A DNA stretch of 45,010 bases. Source: Methylococcaceae bacterium (GTDB taxonomy: Bacteria; Pseudomonadota; Gammaproteobacteria; Methylococcales; Methylomonadaceae). This document shows, in pieces, positions 3-44,886 of the stretch. The first letter of the stretch is position 1; each line of letters opens with the position of its first letter. The notes beneath the pieces were generated by a model, which saw only the letters and a list, made by a program, of their open reading frames with translations, was not told the origin of the DNA and searched no databases. The stretch lies in NCBI GenBank assembly GCA_030626845.1, contig DAOUTG010000012.1, positions 1 through 45,010 on the forward strand. The letters are read 5' to 3'. A program made the position numbers and the translations under genes.

Positions 3-1142
3 GATAATGCAGTTAAACTTGCAGAAGCTAATATTAAAAACACTTTGCAAGAAGAGCTAGTAAAAAAGGACAAACAATTAACGGAATTAAAAATTAAAAG
101 TGATACTGAACTTGCTGAAAAATTAGCGAAGAAAGAGACAGAAATCGCTGAAATGAAATCCAAAATTCAGAGTGCAGAGACAGAGAAAAAACTAGAGGTT
201 TCAGAAGCAATTAAGAAAATAGAGAAAGAACGTAATGATCTCGCTAATGATTTAAGAGTTAAGGAGACAGAAAAAGAATCACTTGAAATATCAACTAAAG
301 AAAAATTTAGAAATAAGCTAGTTGTAAAAGATGAAACTATAAAAATGAAAGATGAAGAAATAGCTCGTTTAAAAGACTTTAAGCAGAAACTTTCAACAAA
401 AATGGTTGGTGAAACGTTGGAACAACACTGTGAAATCGAGTTCAACAAACTTCGTGCAACAGCTTTTCAAAATGCTTTTTTTGAAAAAGATAACGATTCA
501 AGAGAAGGAACTAAAGGCGATTATATTTATAAAGAGACTGATGATGAAATGGCTATTGAAATTATCTCCATTATGTTCGAAATGAAAAATGAAAATGATG
601 AAACGGCTACGAAAAAGAAAAATGAGGATTTTTTCGCTAAACTTGACAAAGATCGTAATGAAAAGAATTGTGAATATGCGGTTCTTGTTTCGCTTTTAGA
701 ACCTGAAAATGAACTCTTTAATACAGGAATAGTTGATGTATCTTATAAATTTAAAAAAATGTATGTAATACGACCTCAATTTTTTATTCCAATGATTACT
801 CTTCTTCGTAATGCAGCAGTTAATTCTCTTAAAGATAAAAAAGAATTAACTTTGATGAAAAATCAAAATATGGACATTACCAATTTTGAAGAAAAGATAG
901 ATGTATTTAAAACAGGGTTTGCTAAAAATTATGATTTAGCTAGCCGAAAATTTAAAACAGCTATTTCTGAAATTGATAAAACCATTATTCATCTTCAAAA
1001 GACAAAGGATGCTCTTTTATCATCGGAAAATAATTTACGTTTGGCTAATAATAAAGCAGATGAGTTAACAATTAGAAAATTAACTTATGGAAATTTAACA
1101 ATGAAAACAAAATTTAATGAGCTTAAAGATAAAAATGTATAA
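3..1142 (+). CDS. DUF2130 coiled-coil protein, 5' end outside the window
   Basis: The frame is open from the first bases of the window, so the gene starts upstream. The first in-frame start-like codon, a TTG at 45, lies inside a repetitive coiled coil and is not credible as a true start. About 130 visible residues are Lys/Glu-rich heptads. They are followed by a globular part containing [52 protein letters not shown] and the [19 protein letters not shown] stretch, which is the pattern of DUF2130. Family members are soluble coiled-coil proteins of unknown function. The C-terminal 100 residues are again helical. The gene is very AT-rich and ends ten bases before an inverted-repeat element, so the area may be accessory DNA. 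Domain call is good; function unknown. Confidence 0.75.
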
Positions 1143-5416: not shown

Positions 5417-5725
5417 TTAAATTTTTTCTAATGCTTTAACAATCGCACAAATAATTAATTGACAGGTTTTAGCCCCTGCATCAATATAGCCCTGTGACCG
5501 TTCTGCCATAAAAGAAGCTCGTCCTTTGGTCGCAATCATATCACGAGTCGATTTCATACCTGTTACTGCGGTATCACAAATAATAATTAATATTTTTTCA
5601 AATGAAACGCTATCAACAATCACTTGTTGCAAAGATTTTTCAACAGGAATTAATACATCCAACATCGTTTTTTCACCCACATCCGCCTTACCTCGTTTTT
5701 TAACAACCGCTACAATTAATGCGGG
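5417..5725 (-). pseudogene. DhaL remnant (C-terminal third only)
   Basis: The frame from 5725 down to 5417 reads PALIVAVVKKRGKADVGEKT and then MLDVLIPVEKS, KGRASFMAERSQGYIDAGAK. This is the ADP-binding C-terminal end of DhaL, the phosphotransfer subunit of dihydroxyacetone kinase, which is normally about 210 residues long. Only about 100 residues remain. An in-frame TGA at 5726-5728 closes the frame upstream and nothing resembling the DhaL N-terminal half with its Mg-ADP aspartates follows. A GTG at 5678-5680 could start an 87-residue peptide, but half a DhaL fold is unlikely to work. No dhaK or PTS-type dhaM is nearby. I call it a decayed gene. Confidence 0.75.
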
Positions 5726-5886: not shown

Positions 5887-6624
5887 ATGATACCTATCAG
5901 CCCCAAAATCATTCTTGTTGCTATTACTAAACATGGTGCAAACCAAGTTAAATCATTAGCCAATGAACTGCCTGATGCAACCGTGCTAGTTGCTGAAAAA
6001 TTTCTGCCTCTGATTCAAGATACAAGTAATCCCGTTCATCATTACACAGGTGCATTTCGTCATCAAATAGCCGCACTATTTTCTGAATATGATCAAGTCG
6101 TCTTTTTTGTTTCCTTAGGTGCGGTGGTTAGATTAATCTCCCCTCACCTAAAATCTAAAGATGAAGACCCAGGTATCATTGTCGTTGATGATGCAGGACA
6201 ATTTGTTATCCCTGTTTTATCAGGTCATGTAGGGGGTGCAAATGCTTATGCCGAAAAGATAGCCCACTTATTACAAGCAACCCCAGTTTTAACCACCGCT
6301 TCCGATGTGGGAAAAACCATTCCCGTTGACATTTTAGGTCGTGAATTAGGTTGGACGATTGAAGCCCCTAAAATTAATATTACTCGTGTTTCAGCCCATG
6401 TCGTTAATGAAGAGCTGATCGCTTTTGTACAAGAAACAGGGGAAAAAGACTGGTGGACACGCCCGACCCCATTACCAAAAACGATTCATCTTTTTAATCG
6501 CTTTGAAGCTGTAAACTTAGATAAATATAAAGCTATACTTTGGGTCACTGATCGTAAAATATCGGATAAACTGTGGCAATCACTAGAAGAGCGTTTAGTG
6601 GTTTATCGACCTAAGGAAAAATAA
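5887..6624 (+). CDS. cbiG: CbiG N-terminal/central part (cobalt-precorrin-5A hydrolase)
   Basis: CbiG opens the delta-lactone ring of cobalt-precorrin-5A and releases acetaldehyde during corrin ring synthesis. The 245 residues carry the N-terminal and central CbiG domains: VFFVSLGAVVRLISPHLKSK, then DPGIIVVDDAGQFVIPVLSG, HVGGANAYAEKIAHLL and TTASDVGKTIPVDILG. The usual C-terminal domain is missing here but is encoded by the next gene two bases downstream, so the classical protein is split in two. It is the first gene of a four-gene cassette. A TATAAT at 5858-5863 lies 23 bases before the start but has no convincing -35, and I saw no cobalamin riboswitch. Confidence 0.9.
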   Translation: MIPISPKIILVAITKHGANQVKSLANELPDATVLVAEKFLPLIQDTSNPVHHYTGAFRHQIAALFSEYDQVVFFVSLGAVVRLISPHLKSKDEDPGIIVVDDAGQFVIPVLSGHVGGANAYAEKIAHLLQATPVLTTASDVGKTIPVDILGRELGWTIEAPKINITRVSAHVVNEELIAFVQETGEKDWWTRPTPLPKTIHLFNRFEAVNLDKYKAILWVTDRKISDKLWQSLEERLVVYRPKEK

Positions 6625-6626
6625 TC

Positions 6627-7025
6627 ATGAAACTAGTATTAGGCTTAGGCTGTGATCGAGGAACAACGTTTGCAACCATCGACACGGCCATTAATAAAGC
6701 CTTACAATCCGTTAACTTATCTTCAGATGATATTATTCAATTTGCAACGATTGATAAAAAAAACGATGAGCAAGGATTACTAGAATGCGCGGAAAAATAT
6801 CAATGTCCTTTGAGTTTTTATTCAGCAATACAATTAGCAAAGGTTGATGTCCCTAATCCCTCAGCTATTGTTATGAAATACATGGGAACGCCCTCAGTAT
6901 CAGAAGCTGCCGCCCTTTTAGCTGCAGAAAAAACAAAAGAAAGCTTAGTTGTAGAAAAATTTAAAATGCGTGGCACAGATAATAAAAATGCCACGGTTTC
7001 AATCGTCATCAAACAAATAAAATAA
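6627..7025 (+). CDS. CobE / CbiG C-terminal domain protein
   Basis: A 132-residue stand-alone CobE/CbiG_C domain. Diagnostic parts are LVLGLGCDRGTT at the N-terminus, FATIDKKNDEQGLLECAEKY in the middle and NPSAIVMKYMGTPSVSEAAA near residues 77-95. This domain is the third part of CbiG in fused proteins and is called CobE in aerobic-pathway bacteria. It begins two bases after cbiG and ends one base before cobJ, so translational coupling is likely. Together with the upstream gene it should reconstitute a full CbiG. Confidence 0.87.
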   Translation: MKLVLGLGCDRGTTFATIDTAINKALQSVNLSSDDIIQFATIDKKNDEQGLLECAEKYQCPLSFYSAIQLAKVDVPNPSAIVMKYMGTPSVSEAAALLAAEKTKESLVVEKFKMRGTDNKNATVSIVIKQIK

Positions 7026-7026
7026 A

Positions 7027-8352
7027 ATGAGTGGAAAAATATATTTAGTCGGTTTTGGTCCAGGTGCAGAAGAACACATGAGTTATCGCGCAAAATCTGC
7101 TATCAGTGATGCCGATATCGTCATTGGTTACACAACCTACATTAAACTAGTCAAAGATTTATTAGTGGATAAAGAAGTCATTAAAAAAGGCATGACTGAA
7201 GAAATTGATCGCTGCATTGAAGCCTATGAACATGCTAAATTAGGTAAAAAAGTTGCGTTAATTTCATCGGGAGATATTGGCGTTTATGGCATGGCAGGGC
7301 CTACTTATGAAGTTTTATTAAAATCAGGCTGGACACCTGACAGTGAGATTAGTGTAGAAGTTATTCCCGGAAGCACCGCCTTATCCGCCTGTGCCTCATT
7401 AGTCGGCGCACCTTTAACCCATGATTTCTGTTCAATCTCTTTATCTGATTTACTAACTCCCTGGCCTGTTATCTCAAGGCGATTAGAGGCGGCAGCAAAA
7501 GCGGACTTTGTGATTGCGCTTTATAATCCCAAAAGTGGTCGTAGAGTTCAACAAATTGTTGAAGCACAAAGAATATTATTAAACTATCGCAGTCCTGAAA
7601 CCCCCGTTGCCATTGTTAAATCCGCTTACCGGCGCCGTCAAATGATTCAATTAGTTCGTTTAGATCAAATGTCAGACTGTGATATTGGAATGCTAACGAC
7701 AGTTTTAATTGGTAACTCATCCACTTATGTTGAACAAGGATTAATGATAACCCCAAGAGGTTATGCTAATAAATATGAAACCTTAACAGGTGAAACCAAA
7801 GCAGGTGAACAAGCAGGGCGTTCCTTAACAATGGGTTTAGAAGGTTGGGAAAGTTGCTTAAGACGTTATTTAGCAGAAAACCCTGTAAAAACCCTAGAAA
7901 AAGTTGCTGATTATTTTGGGGTCTCATTAGGGGAAGTACTTGAAGCTGTTGCTGGTGGTGAGGCTGGTGATTATAAAGCGACGAGGATTACTGATGATAA
8001 AATAAATGAAGTTTTAAAACAAGCTAAAAATTGGGGAAAATTACGTGGCATTGTCCGTGCGGAAGCGGGAACAGTCACTGAACTATTTTTACAAGCCGAT
8101 GAATTTAAACATCGAGGGGAATGGTTAAATGTTGAAAATCCATATTTCCATTGTCATATTAATTGGGAAAATGTAAAAGCTGCCTATTTTTCTAGTCGAG
8201 AACAGCATAGTTACAGTGTGAATTTTATTGATTATTTGGGAAGGCTAGTCTTTCGAGTTTCATTAATAAAACAAGAAGGGCAGTTTAACCCAGAATTATT
8301 AGCGCATTACCATCATGCTTGGAATGATTTAAGCCAAAAAGGGAATCAATAA
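7027..8352 (+). CDS. cobJ: CobJ/CbiH C17-methyltransferase fused to a ChuX/HutX-like domain
   Basis: Residues 1-250 are a precorrin-3B (or cobalt-factor III) C17-methyltransferase, which methylates C17 and drives ring contraction with S-adenosylmethionine. Signs: GKIYLVGFGPG at the N-terminus, ISSGDIGVYGMAGPTYEVL (79-97), EVIPGSTALSACASLVGAPL (111-130) and FVIALYNPKSGRR. CobJ alone is about 250 residues; this protein has 441. Residues 271-435 look like the heme-utilisation ChuX/HutX family: YLAENPVKTLEKVADYFGVS (281-300), LGEVLEAVAGGEA, then a strand-rich part ending with YSVNFIDYLGRLVFRVSLI and NPELLAHYHHAWNDL. The tail lacks a cysteine cluster, so it differs from the Fe-S tail of Bacillus megaterium CbiH60. 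The methyltransferase call is firm; the tail is from remembered family patterns and needs a profile search. Confidence 0.85.
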   Translation: MSGKIYLVGFGPGAEEHMSYRAKSAISDADIVIGYTTYIKLVKDLLVDKEVIKKGMTEEIDRCIEAYEHAKLGKKVALISSGDIGVYGMAGPTYEVLLKSGWTPDSEISVEVIPGSTALSACASLVGAPLTHDFCSISLSDLLTPWPVISRRLEAAAKADFVIALYNPKSGRRVQQIVEAQRILLNYRSPETPVAIVKSAYRRRQMIQLVRLDQMSDCDIGMLTTVLIGNSSTYVEQGLMITPRGYANKYETLTGETKAGEQAGRSLTMGLEGWESCLRRYLAENPVKTLEKVADYFGVSLGEVLEAVAGGEAGDYKATRITDDKINEVLKQAKNWGKLRGIVRAEAGTVTELFLQADEFKHRGEWLNVENPYFHCHINWENVKAAYFSSREQHSYSVNFIDYLGRLVFRVSLIKQEGQFNPELLAHYHHAWNDLSQKGNQ

Positions 8353-8691
8353 ATGACTGAAATGATTAAACCTAAAATGATGGATTATCACCGTCAGATA
8401 TTAGTTTGCGTAGGTGATCGGTGTACAGAAAATAGTTCAGGACAAGCTCTTTATGATGAATTAAAAGATAAATTCAAAAAAGCAGGACTAGATCAGGGGA
8501 AATTAAGAGTAAAAAAAACGCGTGCAACCTGTTTTGGAACGTGTAAATCAGGGCCTTTAGTTTGCATACAACCTGATGGAATTTGGTATTACAATGTAAC
8601 CTCGGATAAATTAGATAGAATTATTAACGAACATTTATTAAATAATAAACCTATTTTGGAATGGGTTTATTATCAAAGAATGCACAACTAG
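8353..8691 (+). CDS. Thioredoxin-like [2Fe-2S] ferredoxin of the cobalamin cassette
   Basis: A 112-residue protein with the four-cysteine pattern of thioredoxin-fold 2Fe-2S ferredoxins: C19-x4-C24 in CVGDRC and C60-x3-C64 in CFGTCKSGP, with PDGIWYYNVT following. It begins immediately after the cobJ stop codon, so it is surely co-transcribed and probably coupled. Such ferredoxins occur in cobalamin gene clusters and may supply electrons for a redox step around ring contraction or cobalt reduction. The partner enzyme here is inferred from position only. Confidence 0.85.
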   Translation: MTEMIKPKMMDYHRQILVCVGDRCTENSSGQALYDELKDKFKKAGLDQGKLRVKKTRATCFGTCKSGPLVCIQPDGIWYYNVTSDKLDRIINEHLLNNKPILEWVYYQRMHN

Positions 8692-8740: not shown

Positions 8741-10438
8741 CTAATCTAAATTATCGGTCACCGCGCCTTTAGAAGCTGAACTAACTAATTTAGCATATTT
8801 AGCTAAAACTCCACGGGTATAACGCGGGCTAGGTTGTTGCCATAACATTTTACGGCGGGAAATTTCTGCATCATTCACATGTAAGGTTAATTCTTTAGTT
8901 TCTGCATCAATGGTGATTTTATCACCATTTTTAATAATAGCGAGTGTACCACCAACGTAGGCTTCTGGGGTAATATGACCGACAACAAAGCCATGCGTTC
9001 CCCCTGAAAAACGCCCATCGGTAATTAAAGCCACATCATTACCTAATCCTTTACCCATGACGGCGGCTGTGGGTGATAACATTTCGCGCATTCCAGGTCC
9101 ACCTTGCGGCCCTTCATAACGAATAACAATCACATCCCCTTTAACAATTTCACCGTTTAAAATGCTGGTTAACGCTTGTTCTTCGGCTTCATAAACTTTA
9201 GCTGTGCCTGTAAAGACTAAACCTTCTTTTCCTGTAATTTTGGCGACACTGCCTTCTGTTGCAAGATTGCCATAAAGAATGGTTAAGTGACTGTCTTTTT
9301 TAATGGGATTATCAAAGGAGCGAATCATATCTTGTTGTTCAGGATAAGGTTTAACATCGGCTAAATTTTCAGCTAATGTTTTGCCTGTAACCGTTAAGCA
9401 ATCACCATGTAATAACCCTTTATCTAATAATTCTTTCATTAAGGGCTGAATCCCCCCAATTTCAATTAACTCTGCCATTTGATAACGGCCGCTAGGTTTT
9501 AAATCGGCAACCATCGGTACATTTGCGCCAATACGAGTAAAATCATCTAAGCTTAAATCAACCTCCGTGGCATTTGCCATGGCTAATAAATGCAAGACGG
9601 CATTGGTTGACCCGCCTAAAGCAATGACAATCGTAATTGCATTTTCAAAGGCTTCTTTGGTCATGATGTCGCGTGGCTTAATATCTTTTTTCAATAATGC
9701 TAAGACGGCTGCCCCTGCGTGTTCACAATCTAGGCGTTTATCTTCGGAGATTGCCGCTTGTGCTGAACTATTAGGTAAACTCATGCCTAAAGCTTCAATA
9801 GCAGAAGCCATTGTGTTTGCGGTATACATTCCGCCACAAGAACCCGCGCCTGGTATGGCTTTGGTTTCGATAGCTTTAAGTTCAGCATCATCAATCTTAT
9901 TATTAGCTCTTGCGCCTACTGCTTCAAATACGGAGACAACATCCAATTTTTTATTGTTATGACAACCTGGTAAAATCGTCCCCCCATAAACAAAAATACT
10001 GGGTCGATTTAAGCGTGATAAGGCCATTAAACAACCTGGCATGTTTTTGTCACAGCCACCAATCGCAACAATTCCATCAAATCCTTGACAGCCTACTACT
10101 GTTTCTATGGAATCTGCGATCACTTCACGTGAAACGAGGGAATATTTCATTCCTTCCGTTCCCATTGAAATACCATCAGAAATGGTAATGGTATTAAAAA
10201 TAACCGCTTTCCCCATTGCCTTATTAACCCCTTTAGCGGCATCATCGGCTAGTTTATTGATGTGCATGTTACAAGGTGTCACCATGCTCCATGTCGATGC
10301 AATCCCTATTTGGGGCTTTTTAAAATCATCTGGCTCAAAACCTACTGCATATAGCATGGCTCGACTAGGGGCGCGTTCCATACCATCAACGACTTGTGAT
10401 GAAAATTTACGAGTTTGTTTGTCCTTTGAATTAGCCAT
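8741..10438 (-). CDS. ilvD: Dihydroxy-acid dehydratase
   Basis: IlvD removes water from 2,3-dihydroxy-3-methyl(but/pent)anoate to give the 2-keto acids of valine and isoleucine; an Fe-S dehydratase. The 565-residue protein has the cluster and active-site region [20 protein letters not shown] followed by PGCLMAL, the [15 protein letters not shown] motif, and the C-terminal [19 protein letters not shown]. The cysteines in [13 protein letters not shown] and GSCGG are all present. The length of about 560 residues fits the shorter IlvD type found in many bacteria. It lies 124 bases downstream of the SH3-domain gene on the same strand and may have its own promoter. Confidence 0.97.
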
Positions 10439-44696: not shown

Positions 44697-44835
44697 GGTG
44701 CATGTAGGCGCACCATTCGGTTACGCGCTTTTTTTATGCCCAAAATTTACCATTGTTATGGTGGGTTGTGTTGGAGACCTTTGGGTCGCCGATTCCTTTG
44801 CTTCGGTAGTTCTAATCTAATTCAACCTACCACCC
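44697..44835. repeat. Further intergenic inverted repeats
   Basis: GGTGC...GCACC at 44697-44714, and an imperfect pair with GGTGGGTTG at 44760 facing CAACCTACCACC near 44824. The 421-base gap between the L,D-transpeptidase gene and the HTH gene contains only these palindromes; a 66-codon frame at 44643-44843 runs through them and is not credible. Confidence 0.45.
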
Positions 44836-44886
44836 GTATTTAGAACTTATGGGGGTAGCTTATAATTTAGCAAAGGGAACGTCATC

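Follow-up and report, generated by a model that had tools for sequence, protein, structure and literature searches.

We analyzed a 45,010-nt stretch of DNA from a Methylococcaceae bacterium, referred to below as the window. Positions 7027–8352 (+) make up a single frame of 441 aa with no interruption, while the opposite strand is full of stops. As the original prediction had stated, the product is a CobJ protein with an extra C-terminal domain. Its N-terminal half (residues 1–250, 7027–7776, +) is, by curated equivalog score, a CobJ/CbiH C-17 methyltransferase/ring-contraction domain: in profile searches TIGR01466 (cobJ_cbiH) covered residues 5–247 with 323.8 bits (equivalog-domain cut-off 246.35, E = 6e-97), leaving the tail beyond, and PF00590 scored 117 bits; Foldseek matched this half to Thermus CobJ 2zvb (E = 7.5e-24, 50% identity). 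The predicted activities are methylation at C-17 and contraction of the ring, by which a porphyrin-type macrocycle becomes a corrin. A conserved linker, GEqAGxSLxMGL (residues 251–270, 7777–7836, +), leads into the tail; its G260, E261, A263, G264, L267, M269 and G270 are invariant in 27 orthologues.

Directly upstream lie the two parts of a split cbiG, whose products the original prediction had expected as partners: a gene for the N-terminal and central part of cobalt-precorrin-5A hydrolase (5887–6624, +; PF11760 E = 2e-33, PF11761 E = 3e-14) and a gene for the CbiG C-terminal part/CobE (6627–7025, +; PF01890 E = 8e-36). A thioredoxin-like [2Fe-2S] ferredoxin gene (8353–8691, +; PF01257 27.4 bits, cut-off 24.8) begins right after the cobJ stop codon. 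In an alignment its cysteines, C19-x4-C24-x35-C60-x3-C64, have the arrangement of thioredoxin-like 2Fe-2S ferredoxins. Between a hemW-like gene and cbiG, positions 5417–5680 (−) encode an 87-aa fragment with the C-terminal half only of a Dak2 (DhaL-type) domain (PF02734, 70 bits), by its sequence a truncated gene relic. The right end of the window carries a C4 antisense RNA (44754–44837, +; RF01695 62.9 bits, cut-off 45), an RNA known from immunity regions of P1/P4-kind phages. An Rfam scan at gathering threshold detected no cobalamin riboswitch in the window or in four cbi loci.

The tail (residues 271–435, 7837–8331, +) consists of a helical N-terminal part followed by a beta-sheet. Both its boundaries and its likeness to ChuX/HutX proteins had been proposed from the sequence, and both were borne out. 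PF06228 (ChuX_HutX) matched residues 296–428 with 42.9 bits (gathering cut-off 25, E = 5.5e-11), PF05171 (HemS) matched residues 313–415 with 27.6 bits (cut-off 24), and no competing family appeared. A profile of 24 orthologous tails searched against the PDB returned HemS, ChuS, ChuX, HutX-like and PhuS-type chains (best E = 5e-8), and profile–profile comparison with three standalone HutX proteins gave 97.7% probability (E = 2e-12, 137 columns). Modelled alone with AF2, the tail gave a confident structure (pLDDT 89.9, pTM 0.86). All 27 of its Foldseek matches in the PDB at E ≤ 1e-3 are members of the superfamily or putative heme-binding or unknown-function relatives, and TM-scores normalized by target length are 0.76–0.84 for ChuX (2ovi/6u9j), 2ph0 and HutX (5exv); the predicted fold is of ChuX type. 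By profiles, predicted structure and fold search the tail is thus a true domain of the ChuX/HutX/HemS superfamily. TIGR04108 (HutX) aligned with residues 278–415 at 39.5 bits (42.4 bits in a second search) and its equivalog cut-off of 110 bits was not reached; we therefore assign the tail to the superfamily rather than to the heme carriers as a demonstrated identity. In the AF2 model of the full-length protein the CobJ half is poor because the alignment is shallow, and residues 220–272 have low confidence; therefore we make no claim on the relative orientation of the two domains.

Conservation was counted over 116 distinct fused proteins. In the WGxLRxxVR motif (residues 336–344, 8032–8058, +) W336 is kept in 109, G337 in 114, R340 in 115 and R344 in 112 of them. 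A near-invariant HxH motif, H375-C376-H377 (8149–8157, +), has its first histidine in 111 and its second in 113 proteins; E352 is present in 112 and W366 in 106. In hhalign alignments FHCHI of the fusion tails paired with LHGHL of HutX, placing H377 at the position of the conserved GH histidine of HutX/ChuX and H375 at a position that is His in some HutX proteins. The heme ligands of ChuX we take to be H65 and H98; with these assumed positions, the profile alignment shows the H98 equivalent kept as H377 and the H65 equivalent replaced by Gly. Presence of H375/H377, R340, R344, E352, W336 and W366 at 91–99% suggests that the tail keeps a site for a ligand and is no structural relic. Both histidines were lost in three members (L164 of genome G322 and two Magnetococcia-like proteins), which also have no ferredoxin of the cobJ-linked subfamily. 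A coupling of HxH loss to ferredoxin loss is unconvincing, as about a dozen His-bearing members have no such ferredoxin either.

The same fusion was sought in other cobJ genes and was found widely. Within the order, 48 of 201 genomes, spread over 13 genera, have a ChuX tail on CobJ. Of 369 genomes sampled across the class, 40 had CobJ above the cut-off and 21 of these 40 were ChuX fusions; a scan of public genomes showed the fusion in all 80 loci kept, out of 246 encoding relatives; and a phylum sample added further families, one having divergent tails. Hosts in the Methylococcales include Methylomonas, Methylobacter, Methylococcus, Methylotuvimicrobium and mussel symbionts; others are Mariprofundaceae/Ghiorsea (Zetaproteobacteria), Chromatiales, Sideroxydans and more. 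A sequencing or assembly artefact is ruled out by the 116 distinct fused proteins, which come from closed as well as draft genomes. The fusion is genuine and of long standing, and it is common among methanotrophs and their relatives. In a maximum-likelihood tree built from the CobJ portion, fused and un-fused proteins cluster apart, which fits a single origin of the fusion and is no proof of it. In one relative (G143, locus L037, 7342–8654) the CobJ part and the tail are encoded in two frames that overlap, owing to a frameshift or to an error in sequencing. The original prediction knew of no characterized fusion of this kind, and we found no publication describing CobJ::ChuX in the open-access literature searched; the architecture is apparently an undescribed variant of a known enzyme.

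In loci with flanking sequence the fused gene belongs to a cbi operon that also encodes CbiX, CbiD and CbiG. Most loci whose flanks were read have the order cbiF-cbiX-cbiC-cbiD-cbiET-cbiL-cbiG(N)-cbiG(C)-cobJ::ChuX-ferredoxin. In the window genome the cluster is spread over three contigs. C6 (the window) has cbiG(N), cbiG(C), cobJ::ChuX and the ferredoxin gene; C114 has cbiC, cbiD, cbiET and cbiL at one end; and C17 carries cbiX and cbiF. A DUF2130 gene with internal repeats of coiled-coil segments is found at 45–1142 (+) of the window and at 9663–10286 of L007. Its 3′ part opens the window, and a similar 5′ part closes C114 after cbiL; C114 and C6 are thus probably neighbours, with the assembly broken at the repeat.

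Among 113 distinct loci with room for it, the ferredoxin gene lies directly 3′ of the fused gene in 98; in ∼13% none adjoins. The cobJ-linked ferredoxin subfamily was absent from 20 genomes with un-fused CobJ (best score 63 bits), whereas it scored 90–217 bits in fused genomes possessing one. Several Zetaproteobacteria and relatives have two tandem ferredoxin genes 3′ of cobJ::ChuX (L124, 8545–9194; L126, L132, L137, L143, L154). Triple fusions of CobJ, ChuX and a BluB-like nitroreductase, and one fusion of ferredoxin with a BluB-like protein, were also observed in cbi operons (L150, 3265–5364; L073; L083, 1877–3106); the BluB-like fusions are consistent with aerobic life.

Fusion follows the type of B12 pathway. 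CobN, the late cobaltochelatase, was detected in 2 of 21 fused versus 17 of 20 un-fused genomes, while CbiD and CbiX are present in nearly all fused ones; the pathway is therefore cobalt-early. The window genome conforms, with CbiX beside CbiF, CbiD on C114, CbiG in the window and CobN absent. Substitution of the tail and ferredoxin for the precorrin-3B synthases CobG/CobZ was set aside because, with CbiX, CbiD and CbiG present and CobN absent, the pathway is cobalt-early and the oxygenation is superfluous.

The precorrin-6A reductase CbiJ/CobK (PF02571) was absent from 34 of 34 fused genomes and present in 20 of 20 un-fused ones (Fisher P = 3e-15, with co-occurrence statistics uncorrected for shared descent). 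PF02571 had no match anywhere in the window genome, including the fused protein itself, which could only work like CbiJ and not be CbiJ. Since the rest of the operon's ring-assembly enzymes have assigned roles, the parts that stand out as unassigned are the ChuX domain and the ferredoxin; given the distribution of CbiJ/CobK, one or both are candidates for precorrin-6A reduction. The methanotroph Methylocaldum marinum has been described as having the genes for de novo B12 synthesis complete except for cbiJ-cobK, which is also missing from most archaea (PMC10974252). The downstream 2Fe-2S ferredoxin and the absence of CbiJ/CobK, both missed by the original prediction, point to redox chemistry on corrin intermediates.

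Some relatives do without the ChuX beta-domain. In the betaproteobacteria Ideonella, Methylibium and Vitreoscilla the operon and the ferredoxin are the same and CobJ is 63–70% identical, but its tail keeps just the helical start. No cbiJ is annotated within these three cbi clusters, nor in the cobalt-early clusters of Thermus and Leptospira, which likewise have no ChuX domain and whose CbiX proteins carry ferredoxin-like regions; none was seen for records of these groups among the plasmid matches listed (60 of 181). The link between ferredoxin and missing cbiJ is therefore wider than that of ChuX. These ferredoxin-only betaproteobacterial operons, together with the ferredoxin-less fused genes, weaken the idea of ChuX domain and ferredoxin as an obligate pair. 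In a Leptospira interrogans plasmid record (L274, 11992–13485) CobJ has another tail, of ∼230 residues with no Pfam match; in its cluster a ferredoxin-like domain is part of CbiX, and a gene for an FAD-binding oxidoreductase lies close by.

Among known systems, the ChuX/HutX carriers (ChuX of E. coli O157, 2ovi/6u9j; HutX of V. cholerae, 5exv) share with the tail the fold, with its helical N-terminal part and beta-sheet, and the GH histidine (Foldseek E 7e-12 to 3e-8, 15–22% identity). In contrast to them, the tail is fused to CobJ within a cbi operon, lacks conservation at one presumed heme-ligand position and scores below the HutX equivalog cut-off. HemS, ChuS, PhuS and HmuS (PF05171) belong to the same superfamily, with a weaker match that is still above the gathering cut-off; these are heme-degrading or chaperone proteins that have two tandem domains and act on heme, whereas the fusion tail is a single domain. 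Thermus CobJ TT0207 (2zvb), from a CbiX-CbiD-type cluster without cbiJ, has 287 aa and stops where the ChuX tail would start; a weak 2Fe-2S ferredoxin-like region follows the CbiX of its cluster. CbiH60 of Bacillus (Priestia) megaterium (Moore et al. 2013) reportedly has a redox-active C-terminal extension, nitrite/sulfite-reductase-like and with a 4Fe-4S cluster, that is required for conversion of cobalt-factor III to cobalt-precorrin-4. If so, it is a characterized precedent for the reading favoured below: like our protein it is a cobalt-early CbiH of an aerobe, extended at its C-terminus and tied to redox chemistry. It differs from the fusion, whose tail is ChuX-like and has no cysteine cluster and whose Fe-S partner comes from a separate gene.

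What the tail binds and does can be read from homology, conservation and co-occurrence. We see an even chance that it is a ChuX/HutX-fold domain repurposed to hold a cobalt-tetrapyrrole intermediate of B12 synthesis on a cobalt-early CbiH-type enzyme, in a section of the pathway that uses ferredoxin electrons. The tail would bind cobalt-factor III, cobalt-precorrin-4 or a later corrinoid, with no part in heme trafficking, and would keep it beside the CobJ active site, the HxH histidines being candidate axial ligands to cobalt. There the intermediate may be shielded, or offered to the reductive steps of the pathway, whose electrons would come from the 2Fe-2S ferredoxin encoded next to cobJ. We favour this reading because the HxH, R, R, E and W set is conserved and the cobalt-early operon is fixed; the first idea of the original prediction, a tail holding a labile tetrapyrrole intermediate, is plausible in this light. 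The true ChuX/HutX fold, the scarcity of CobN in fused genomes, the single PF06228 protein of the window genome and the adjoining ferredoxin gene also count in its favour. Counting against it are the Gly at the second presumed ChuX heme-ligand position, the dispensability of the ChuX domain in the Ideonella, Methylibium and Vitreoscilla operons, the loss of both histidines in the Magnetococcia-like and G322 members, and the fused genes with room for a ferredoxin that have none adjoining. The conserved residues also bear on whether the tail is a ligand-free structural or oligomerization module that stabilizes CobJ or docks CbiG, CbiL or CbiF. Such a role would agree with the adjoining split cbiG genes and with close relatives that retain the helical start and miss the beta-domain, but near-invariance of these residues in 116 proteins exceeds the needs of a scaffold, and we regard it as quite unlikely.

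The strict exclusion of CbiJ/CobK by the fusion could mean that the ChuX domain and its dedicated 2Fe-2S ferredoxin are a non-orthologous replacement of that enzyme, a ferredoxin-dependent cobalt-precorrin-6A reductase residing on CobJ. The tail stands where cbiJ is found beside or fused to cobJ in other bacteria: a CobJ-CbiJ fusion occurs in one of the un-fused genomes (L238), and cobK overlaps cobJ in several plasmid records. The otherwise assigned operon and the gap in M. marinum speak for it as well. Still, clusters with neither cbiJ nor ChuX make the loss of CbiJ look wider than the fusion, the ferredoxin-linked chemistry could serve another acceptor, and the separate clustering of fused and un-fused CobJ in the tree reduces the association to few independent events; a replacement thus appears unlikely. 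As for heme, the fold and the position of H377 are common to heme-binding ChuX/HutX proteins, which bind ferric heme 1:1 (PMC10404700), and the tail might be a regulatory or trafficking domain that matches B12 synthesis to heme supply. This second idea of the original prediction, heme sensing or heme balance, has lost ground. The fused protein is the only PF06228 protein of the 2.5-Mb draft genome, which thus has no separate heme carrier of the ChuX/HutX kind, and therefore heme trafficking or sensing is unlikely; a search for standalone HutX in the class sample with TIGR04108 returned fused proteins alone. With the HutX equivalog score not reached, one presumed heme histidine not kept and the fusion tracking the corrin pathway type (CobN, CbiJ), a heme domain is improbable.

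A replacement of CbiJ, if true, would fill the cbiJ/cobK hole of methanotroph B12 pathways; the archaeal hole would require another protein, and the fusion was not found in archaea here. The strict exclusion of CbiJ ties the fusion to a documented gap in B12 synthesis (PMC10974252) and makes the link testable through named genes in tractable methanotrophs. Little is known about how aerobes such as methanotrophs handle oxygen-sensitive intermediates of the cobalt-early pathway, and a conserved domain of heme-carrier type on CobJ offers a concrete handle on how such intermediates may be held or channelled.
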